39,434 nt of DNA from Bacteroidales bacterium Bact_11 (GTDB taxonomy: Bacteria > Bacteroidota > Bacteroidia > Bacteroidales > UBA932): assembly GCA_001603505.1 (NCBI GenBank), contig LUZC01000032.1, positions 1-39,434 of the forward strand, read 5' to 3'. Made by a program: the position numbers and the translations under genes. The notes below the pieces were generated by a model. It was not told the DNA's origin. It was given only the letters and a program-made list of their open reading frames with translations, and made no database searches. Shown piece after piece: positions 6,836 to 39,133 of the stretch. Numbering within the stretch: the stretch's first letter is position 1; every line of letters starts with the position of its first letter.

Positions 6836-6879
6836 CTTATAACTTTTATCACGGTTTTAGCAGTGATAAAAGTTATAAG
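6836..6879. terminator. Perfect 17-bp hairpin after giant gene 1
   Basis: Left arm 6836-6852 (CTTATAACTTTTATCAC) pairs perfectly with 6863-6879 around a 10-nt loop. It begins 41 nt after the stop of the giant gene. No T-tract follows on either strand, so it is not a textbook intrinsic terminator. It may be a terminator, an mRNA 3'-end stabiliser or a protein-binding palindrome. A hairpin of the same geometry but different sequence lies after giant gene 2. Confidence 0.6.
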
Positions 6880-12146: not shown

Positions 12147-12188
12147 TCATTACATGGATTCCGGTTTGACCTGGAATCCATGTAATGA
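12147..12188. terminator. Perfect 16-bp hairpin after giant gene 2
   Basis: Arm 12147-12162 (TCATTACATGGATTCC) pairs perfectly with 12173-12188 around a 10-nt loop that may close by two more pairs. It starts 45 nt after the giant gene's stop and lies between that gene and the convergent ATPase remnant. No T-tract is present on either strand. The geometry matches the hairpin after giant gene 1. Confidence 0.6.
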
Positions 12189-36834: not shown

Positions 36835-36903
36835 CAAAATAAATACGATGAATCGCATGCTTGCAGGGAATGGCTCAAAAACCTTTCGCTTCGCTTCATC
36901 CCT

Positions 36904-36956
36904 CCCAAAGTCAAGGCTTTGGGGCCCTCCCGTTCACATGGCCACGGGCGGCCATG
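36904..36956. other. Two hairpins in the tamL/trmH-like spacer
   Basis: The 224-bp spacer contains two adjacent hairpins: 36904-36910 with 36917-36923 (CCCAAAG/CTTTGGG, 6-nt loop) and 36937-36943 with 36950-36956 (CATGGCC/GGCCATG, 6-nt loop). A run of five T follows the second on the plus strand, like an intrinsic terminator pointing away from both minus-strand genes. No plus-strand gene lies upstream to need it; it could block antisense transcription, or be part of a dispersed element. Confidence 0.4.
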
Positions 36957-37044
36957 GGTTTTTGATCCTTTCCCTGACGCGCGTTGTCGCGATTCCTCTT
37001 GTCAATAATAAGTCCTCATCGGGACAGCCGATTACCGACTTCGA

Positions 37045-37909: not shown

Positions 37910-39133
37910 TTAGCGGTTCTTGTACATGTCCTCGTAGTACCGCTGGTAGTCGCCGCTGGTGACGCTGTCCATCCATTCCTGGTTGTCGAGATACCAGCGC
38001 ACCGTCTTCTCGATGCCTTCCTCGAACTGAAGCGACGGCTCCCAGCCGAGTTCCTTCTGGAGTTTGCTCGAATCGATGGCGTAGCGCAGGTCGTGGCCGG
38101 CACGGTCGGTAACGTAGGTGATCAGATGCTCGCTCGTTCCTTCGGGGTTGCCCAGCAGGCGGTCGACGGTCTTGATGAGGACCTTGATCAGGTCGATGTT
38201 CTTCCATTCGTTGAAGCCGCCGATATTGTAGGTTTCGGCGACCTTGCCTTTGTGGAAAATCAGGTCGATGGCCCGTGCGTGGTCTTCCACGTAGAGCCAG
38301 TCGCGCACGTTCTCGCCCTTGCCGTACACCGGCAGGGGTTTTCCATGGCGGATATTGTTGATGAACAGCGGGATCAGTTTCTCAGGGAACTGGTATGGGC
38401 CGTAGTTGTTCGAGCAGTTGGTCACCACGGTAGGCAGGCCGTAGGTGTCGTGGTAGGCGCGCACGAAGTGGTCGGAGCTGGCCTTGGCGGCGCTGTAGGG
38501 GCTGTGCGGCTGGTACTTGAGGTCTTCCGTGAAGAACTGCGTGCCGTAGGCCAGGTGGTGCTTTCCGCTGGAAGCCTTCGTCGAGAAGGGCGGTTCCACG
38601 CCCGCCGGATCTGTGATTTCAAGGGCGCCGTAGACTTCGTCCGTGGAGATATGGTAGAAGCGGCACTCCGTTGCGGGTGCATCTCCTTCACATCCGCTAC
38701 GGCGATCCGCACTGGCCTCCCCGCAAAAACTCCGTGAAGGAGATGCACCCGCAACGGGCAATCGGTAGGCGAACGGCTCCCATGCCAGTTTCGCAGCCTG
38801 GAGAAGGGTCAGCGTGCCCATCACGTTGGTCTTGGCGAAAGTAAACGGATCCTTGATGCTCCGGTCCACGTGGCTCTCGGCGGCGAGATGGATCACGCCG
38901 TCGACTTTCTCTTCCTGCATCAGTTTCAGGATACCCTCGAAATCGCAGATGTCCATCTTCACGAAGCGGTAGTTGGGCTTGCCCTCGATGTCCTTCAGGT
39001 TGGCCAGGTTGCCGGCGTAGGTGAGTTTGTCGAGATTGATGATCCGATAATCAGGATACTTGTTGACGAACAGACGTACGACGTGGCTGCCGATGAACCC
39101 TGCGCCGCCGGTGATGAGGATGGTGCGTTTCAT
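37910..39133 (-). CDS. rfbB: dTDP-glucose 4,6-dehydratase with in-frame insertion
   Basis: Extended short-chain dehydrogenase making dTDP-4-keto-6-deoxyglucose from dTDP-glucose, for rhamnose and other sugars in surface polysaccharides. The Rossmann motif GGAGFIGS (residues 9-16), HLAAESHVDRSI, the active-site STDEVYG and the YSAAK catalytic motif are intact, as are NYGPYQFPEKLIP and VRDWLYVEDH. At 407 residues it is about 30 longer than relatives. The excess is residues about 126-156, an Arg/Ser/Cys/Gly-rich stretch encoded by a 90-bp palindromic element, placed between AAKLAWE and RFYHISTDEV. Since frame and catalytic residues are kept, the enzyme may still work. No other dTDP-sugar genes are adjacent. 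Confidence 0.93.
   Translation of the reverse strand: MKRTILITGGAGFIGSHVVRLFVNKYPDYRIINLDKLTYAGNLANLKDIEGKPNYRFVKMDICDFEGILKLMQEEKVDGVIHLAAESHVDRSIKDPFTFAKTNVMGTLTLLQAAKLAWEPFAYRLPVAGASPSRSFCGEASADRRSGCEGDAPATECRFYHISTDEVYGALEITDPAGVEPPFSTKASSGKHHLAYGTQFFTEDLKYQPHSPYSAAKASSDHFVRAYHDTYGLPTVVTNCSNNYGPYQFPEKLIPLFINNIRHGKPLPVYGKGENVRDWLYVEDHARAIDLIFHKGKVAETYNIGGFNEWKNIDLIKVLIKTVDRLLGNPEGTSEHLITYVTDRAGHDLRYAIDSSKLQKELGWEPSLQFEEGIEKTVRWYLDNQEWMDSVTSGDYQRYYEDMYKNR
38668..38757. repeat. 90-bp palindromic element inside rfbB
   Basis: Perfect 24-bp inverted repeats, 38668-38691 (begins CCGTTGCGGGTGCATC) and 38734-38757, enclose a 42-nt central region that contains a short direct repeat (ATCCGC twice). 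Its length of 90 bp keeps the reading frame and it adds 30 codons with no stop. This segment lies where related RfbB proteins have only a short loop. No second copy was noticed elsewhere in the window and no clear target duplication is seen. Confidence 0.85.

Follow-up and report, generated by a model that had tools for sequence, protein, structure and literature searches.

A palindromic element with a constant core and private arms lies in frame in rfbB of a Bacteroidales bacterium and has copies among its relatives

Element A in rfbB

The DNA analyzed here, which we call the window, comprises 39,434 nucleotides (positions 1 to 39,434) of contig LUZC01000032.1 from Bacteroidales bacterium Bact_11 (assembly GCA_001603505.1). 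It contains a perfect palindrome inside rfbB, the gene for dTDP-glucose 4,6-dehydratase. We call this palindrome element A; the names A, B and REP-M (a kind of repetitive extragenic palindrome, REP) are labels coined in this analysis. The features at the locus are as follows.

37910..39133, minus strand: rfbB (dTDP-glucose 4,6-dehydratase), 407 aa, with element A in frame; from the open reading frame (ORF), the family match, solved relatives and a low-confidence loop at residues 123-154
38668..38691, plus strand: left 24-bp arm of element A, 100% complementary to 38734-38757
38692..38733, plus strand: constant core of element A, 42 nt; from a 37-row alignment and a core-pattern search of the genus
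38734..38757, plus strand: right 24-bp arm of element A; from its complementarity to the left arm and the covariation of the arms across copies

Element A measures 90 bp (38668-38757), with 24-nt arms that are 100% complementary and 42 nt between them. An initial annotation of the window, made from the sequence alone, had described such a perfect repeat with a 42-nt middle, in frame in rfbB, and both its coordinates and the reading frame are confirmed. The element lies inside an uninterrupted ORF of 407 aa on the minus strand (37910-39133), whose product belongs to the Epimerase/GDP_Man_Dehyd family and has dTDP-glucose 4,6-dehydratases as its best solved relatives. The annotation's count of 30 added codons has to be adjusted: the addition is in frame, and the net gain is 29 codons over a congener with a 10-residue loop (ESLPEKYEGK), from which the residues flanking the palindrome on both sides also differ.

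A search of the entire window, under the limits set for it, listed 10 inverted repeats with element A at the top. With as many as 3 mismatches allowed, the 24-nt arm matches the window only at its own two positions, and it has no match in 100 shuffles. As RNA, a 106-nt stretch with the element folds at -66 kcal/mol, compared with -39.1 kcal/mol for shuffles (standard deviation 3.3; z -8.2), and none of 200 shuffles reaches this energy.

A structural model of the window's RfbB, built on a 20-row alignment, has a mean predicted local distance difference test (pLDDT) score of 81, and its fold matches solved RmlB structures. The score falls below 50 at residues 123-154, between a helix (96-118) and a strand (159-163) that leads to the STDE motif, whose role we take to be catalytic. 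Low values at the insert are expected in any case, because the other rows of the alignment, relatives from viral contigs, were not chosen for carrying it; a segment separate from element A (175-195) also scores below 50. Most likely, judging by the model, the element encodes a disordered surface loop that does not destroy the fold.

A dispersed family in the genus

A pattern built on the core finds family A in 12 of 40 genus genomes, our own included, while reversed-pattern controls find none; a covariance model recovers the same 12. Five genomes (G000, G004, G033, G027 and G034) have the rfbB copy as the only one found. In G027 and G034 this copy appears twice among the covariance-model matches because the reverse strand scores too. 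With stricter filters, the covariance model finds no copy in 294 other Bacteroidales genomes. A scan for the exact core through the genomes of 84,980 species yields 20 contigs, all labeled as Bacteroidales or Bacteroidia and many labeled with a ruminant source, and there is no match in phages, plasmids or viral contigs. The best reading of these searches is that element A is restricted to the genus, as far as the scans reach.

The initial annotation had expected many dispersed copies, some of them inside genes and then in frame. The expectation about genes is borne out, in rfbB as well as in mnmG and folC. Dispersal is found among the relatives and not at home, for the bacterium's own assembly (1.88 Mb, 105 contigs, 81% complete) has no second copy. 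We have therefore dropped the idea of spread within our own genome, although REP-M and family B, two companion repeats described at the end, recur there. The annotation had also named the opposite outcome, a sequence without copies elsewhere and a stretch conserved in distant RfbB proteins; what we find is a dispersed family, and short loops are common.

We collected 72 copies, which form 40 site groups (a group shares at least one flank of at least 100 nt). G015 carries 33 copies, G018, G008 and G063 carry 7 each, G028 has 6, G023 has 4, G011 has 3, and the remaining five carrier genomes have one each. Downstream of its mnmG gene, which itself bears element A, G015 has three further A units in tandem at L037:2011-2255, spaced by about 83 nt. 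The 72 do not include the truncated copy in L201 or, at L010 (G023) and L164 (G063), the second unit of each tandem.

A constant core between private arms

In 37 aligned copies the 42-nt core is near-constant (ATCCGCTACGGCnnTCCGCACnnGCCTCCCCGCAAAAACTCC), whereas the arms differ from copy to copy. (The alignment omits the indel-bearing copies L056, L061 and L062 and the tandem part-copies L037 and L010.) Arms are mostly 20-27 bp long and full copies mostly 82-104 bp. The inner 13 bp or so of the arms are near-constant, the outer parts carry a loose CGTTGC/CGTAGC consensus, and variation is greatest towards the arm ends, which have no fixed GTAG or CGTC tag.

Private as they are, the two arms of a copy match each other. 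Both sides have changed in 21 of 24 arm pairs, and 95.8% of 888 cells in the arm alignment are paired, a value that drops to 40-49% when the arms are slid by 1-3 columns. Over the inner 16 bp, which are perfect in 47 of 67 copies, we count 1030 Watson-Crick, 17 G-T, 10 A-C and 15 other cells (the count omits L155 and L040, which are truncated by a contig end, and the three L037 tandem units). The 17 G-T and 10 A-C cells show no clear strand asymmetry. We infer that the arms are kept matching by re-copying one from the other as DNA. Correction at the DNA level is tentatively favored over selection on RNA because wobble intermediates are few and there is no clear strand bias.

The core occurs in either orientation, even at orthologous intergenic sites. 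Judged against the neighboring genes, it opposes the rest in 1 of 5 copies of the L038 group, 1 of 4 in L060, 2 of 5 in L034 and 2 of 4 in L056; it is uniform in the L045 and L050 groups (three copies each), and the L042 group allows no judgment. Many copies could also be read through. Among 57 non-coding copies, four or five frames are open in 31, and the mean is 3.3, compared with 2.1 in plain shuffles, in which the palindrome is lost.

Placement between genes

Thirty-nine of the 72 copies lie between convergent genes, 15 between tandem genes and 2 between divergent genes, while 10 lie in genes and 6 at contig edges. Hence, 39 of 56 intergenic copies are convergent and 2 of 56 divergent. By site group the numbers are 23 convergent, 10 tandem, 1 divergent, 4 at edges and 2 in genes, where the mnmG group, with three of four members downstream of the gene, was scored as tandem for that reason. 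Control gene pairs are 20 convergent, 51 tandem and 38 divergent with gaps of at least 40 nt, and 39, 88 and 39 with any gap. These controls are a non-random sample, drawn from loci around Y1_Tnp, folC and mnmG genes plus the window and L203, and two of the loci (L204 and L234) themselves carry element A. Genes around the copies were called by a home-made codon score. Element A often lies 1-20 nt past a stop codon, at the 3' end of a gene.

One convergent junction can be followed through several genomes (sites homologous to L045:1470-1580; L328-L341). In G023 only 3 nt separate the two stop codons. G008, G063 and G028 have element A at this junction, G024 combines a REP-like sequence with one that resembles B (84% over 31 nt, E 5e-5), and G004 and G001 have another hairpin-like sequence. 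Because sites with and without A differ beyond the element, they do not fix its exact ends.

In-frame copies and shared landing sites

Element A lies in frame in three genes: rfbB of eight genomes, and mnmG and folC of G015. The frame is open through A in all eight rfbB genes (one cut by a contig end), in mnmG (whose 5' end lies beyond the fetched stretch) and in folC. The same frame is read in rfbB and folC (SRSFCG), and a frame of the other strand in mnmG. Seven suspected coding copies (L062, L034, L046, L117, L152, L154 and L201) were set aside for a doubtful frame, a position upstream of the likely start or a truncated element.

The rfbB loop could be read in 28 genomes of the genus. Eight have element A (G000, G004, G027, G033, G034, G015, G018 and G023, the last with a tandem pair), three have REP peptides instead (G036, G007 and G013), G011 has palindrome B, and G028 has a longer, unassigned loop. 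The remaining 15 have the short loop that the annotation had ascribed to relatives.

The other two genes resemble rfbB in this respect. By loop motif, 23 of 30 fetched folC orthologues and 10 of 30 mnmG orthologues were readable. Nineteen of the 23 folC genes have no insertion at the A site, and G036 and G007 have a REP peptide there (IPGQAGND). In mnmG, G027 has IPGQARNE, and in G015 element A follows REP-derived units (HARPEDDRHARPEDDRHARPD). Since relatives hold other palindromes in the same loops, we regard the loops of rfbB, folC and mnmG as recurrent landing sites. Two further folC observations concern G019, where a long different insertion occupies the same loop (L206), and G018, where the folC match contains one TGA stop (L205).

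A single origin of the rfbB copies is not supported, as A carriers do not group on the rfbB tree. G023 (A) is the sister of G011 (B; support 100/98), G015 (A) pairs with G036 (REP; 83/91), and G027, G004 and G033 (A) stand beside G024 and G001 (short loop; 90/86). The A label requires four changes on this tree, of which well-supported branches force two; shuffled labels require 4.2 on average, and 291 of 500 shuffles are as low. The natural reading is turnover or repeated insertion at the loop, which this gene tree would suggest with only two changes forced.

What element A may be

The compared genomes display dispersal, matching private arms, a core in either orientation, a preferred placement and in-frame copies. 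From these we think that element A is probably a genus-restricted, non-autonomous dispersed palindrome of the same kind as REPs and Rickettsia palindromic elements (RPEs), with spread, tolerance and arm re-copying as the processes behind it. Element A would spread in trans, through an enzyme encoded elsewhere. Insertions would survive where they do little harm, that is, in 3' intergenic gaps and in surface loops, and several open frames would help copies to survive within genes. The re-copying of one arm from the other, through hairpin template switching or an equivalent process, could also flip the core. In rfbB the element would add a probably disordered loop ahead of the strand that leads to STDE, with the fold intact.

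Several points weigh against this explanation. First, our own genome bears no sign of recent movement, and the L045-homologous junction fixed neither a target-site duplication nor a clean pair of empty and filled sites. Second, no mobilizer stands out. Matches to PF01797 (Y1_Tnp) occur in 27 of 40 genus genomes, with none in G018 despite its A copies, and at 30 loci examined among the 68 listed matches no exact A or REP-M motif lies within about 1.5 kb on either side. Mobilization of A by a REP-associated tyrosine transposase (RAYT) is thus unsupported at these loci. The 192 called proteins that flank A copies form 29 groups of relatives, only one of which is paired within one genome (G015), and we found no parent transposon. 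Third, the matching of the arms could instead stem from selection on the hairpin. Fourth, translation through element A in rfbB, mnmG and folC is predicted from open frames, and the low pLDDT of the insert could be due in part to its absence from every other row of the alignment.

One could also take a bolder view, which we put forward only tentatively. Elements A and B might together form an undescribed class of "inside-out" bacterial palindromes, in which a fixed core gives the identity, while the private arms are constantly re-copied from each other at the DNA hairpin, a process that would also invert the core. Such units would have perfect hairpins but no conserved ends, would trade places with REPs at common landing sites and would in this way go on rewriting disordered loops of housekeeping enzymes throughout the genus.

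Alternative explanations

It seems rather unlikely to us that element A is a functional RNA or a terminator-like 3' element under selection at gene ends, with the coding copies as accidents. The conserved loop and covarying stem would fit such a role, as would the position between convergent genes, in many cases 1-20 nt beyond a stop codon, and the presence of several sites common to multiple genomes. Against it, wobble pairs are very few, the 17 G-T and 10 A-C cells show no clear strand asymmetry, and some orthologous sites have the core in opposite orientations. In 7 of 67 copies, four consecutive T lie no more than 12 nt past an arm, about as often as at random places (102 of 1340), so the T-run test gives no clear excess in favor of an intrinsic terminator. 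A known RNA family was also rejected as the identity of A: Rfam gives nothing for 38500-38900 with E values as high as 1, and nothing at gathering score for the window.

Unlikely, too, is that the rfbB copy has been domesticated, its core being a DNA or RNA site selected within the gene and not a passenger. In favor of it, six rfbB genes vary at the third position in 2 of 15 core codons and in 172 of 280 codons of the flanks (Fisher P 2.7e-4); for the first position the numbers are 4 of 15 and 29 of 280 (P 0.07). Across seven rfbB copies the outer arms diverge by 34% on average, the inner arms by 6% and the core by 10%, and five genomes keep this copy alone, as far as found. The pooled P value is nevertheless too strong, because rfbB may have been hit repeatedly: genes with A, REP, B and short loops are mixed on the tree, and some insertions may be separate. 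Three contrasts, two of them with a branch in common, were drawn within what are probably single insertions; in these, third positions changed in 4 of 42 cases where 9.45 were expected (P 0.026), and first positions changed in 5 of 42 where 1.25 were expected (P 0.008). The changes also sit at the element's own degenerate positions. The rfbB core obeys the pattern of the element and not that of codons, and either recent arrival or selection at the nucleotide level may account for this.

Doubtful in a somewhat higher degree is the idea that the arms come from the target, the core having inserted into the tip of existing hairpins (REPs or terminators) whose old stems became the arms. It would explain private outer arms and positions at 3' gene ends. 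The B copy in frame in rfbB of G011 has GTCATGCCC on one side and GGGC on the other, which look like halves of a REP, and one A copy (L159) lies between the REP-like halves GTCATGCCCGG and CCGGGCATC. Against it, the arms share a near-constant inner part of about 13 bp and a loose outer consensus, and a REP-M sequence lies within 80 nt of just 18 of 72 copies. Finally, the length of the segment before the STDE strand does vary within the genus, but an ordinary RfbB loop that is palindromic by chance is practically refuted by the dispersed copies, as the same DNA stands at 72 places, mostly intergenic, and in unrelated enzymes, and shuffles never yield the palindrome.

Comparison with known palindromes

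Palindromes embedded in proteins are best known from Rickettsia and Wolbachia. Like RPEs, element A is a small palindrome with a long stem-loop that is found in intergenic DNA as well as in frame within conserved proteins. It is somewhat shorter (mostly 82-104 bp) than the 105-146 bp that PMC2229807 gives in its passage on RPEs. The identity of RPE arms decays over time according to the relevant part of PMC6649704, unlike the inner 16 bp of element A with its 47 perfect copies in 67. A constant core with private arms is absent from the descriptions of RPEs that these two sources offer in those passages. The initial annotation likened the element to RPEs. As a statement about how it works the likeness holds, but it does not extend to membership in an RPE sequence family: the exact-pattern scan matches the core in Bacteroidales or Bacteroidia alone, although diverged relatives would escape such a scan and RPEs were compared by description.

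For comparison with element A, REPIN sequences are grouped with the GTAG- or CGTC-tagged REPs. Element A resembles REPs in adjoining 3' ends, in its convergent or tandem placement, in its intragenic copies and in its clusters. It differs in being longer, in having no fixed GTAG or CGTC tag, and in that the center is conserved instead of the ends. In contrast to GTAG-type REPs with a linked RAYT, it does not lie beside the Y1_Tnp genes examined; CGTC repeats are likewise presented in PMC3733652 without a linked transposase gene. That paper places REPs mainly between convergent and unidirectional genes, near 3' ends, with dimers, clusters and intragenic copies, and equates RPE-4 and RPE-6 with CGTC repeats (PMC3733652). 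As to the annotation's remark that protein-embedded palindromes are little described in Bacteroidales, the open literature includes the 2013 paper PMC3733652, which reports CGTC palindromes from Bacteroidetes and intragenic REPs in several species. No title or abstract in the open literature was recognized as describing element A itself, with many subscription papers outside that search.

Two more systems come close. Nematomorpha mitochondrial genes contain perfect coding inverted repeats, for which PMC6649704 offers template switching as a possible cause in the part that concerns them. Element A is likewise a perfect inverted repeat inside protein-coding frames. Both arms of the Nematomorpha palindromes encode conserved protein, whereas element A is a dispersed repeat that adds a loop which short-loop relatives lack. 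Miniature inverted-repeat transposable elements (MITEs; Correia/NEMIS, ERIC and RUP) are also small, non-autonomous and hairpin-forming, and some are fused in frame, as outlined in the pertinent passage of PMC2229807. Most of the MITEs listed there are bounded by terminal inverted repeats and by duplications of the target, in contrast to the variable ends and fixed middle of element A.

Our results would extend protein-embedded palindromes to uncultured Bacteroidales. With dozens of species genomes, filled, differently filled and short loops can be compared in one and the same enzyme. Thanks to the combination of a constant core with matching arms, one can ask whether replication errors or selection keep genic palindromes perfect, and element A points to one route by which new loops may enter conserved enzymes.

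Companion repeats

The window contains one further repeat of this kind.

36864..36976, minus strand: probable family B copy between genes; inverted repeat with 20-bp arms, 90% complementary, 73 nt between

This stretch matches the core of family B at 73% over 67 nt (E 1.6e-4). In family B, whose loci include L264, private arms flank a core of about 70 nt. In 14 of 24 rows the arms are 12-33 bp without mismatch, taken at the best register near the core. The family has matches in 24 of 40 genus genomes and eight in our own, one of them in the window. REP-M (the exact sequence GTCATGCCCGG...CCGGGCATC) occurs in 18 of 40 genus genomes, with 17 exact copies in our own. The companion repeat of the form CGTC-ATGCCCGG-cttga-CCGGGCAT fits the CGTC type, which PMC3733652 characterizes by a stem of 8-9 bp and a loop of 4-5 nt.

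Several Y1_Tnp genes at L120-L149 are flanked on both sides by hairpins of their own (AATCGGTTGCG...CGCAACCGATT, TCTTTCTGTCC...). These apparently are RAYT-REP sets unrelated to element A. The window also has two short perfect inverted repeats with 10-nt loops, at 6836-6879 (17 bp) and 12147-12188 (16 bp).
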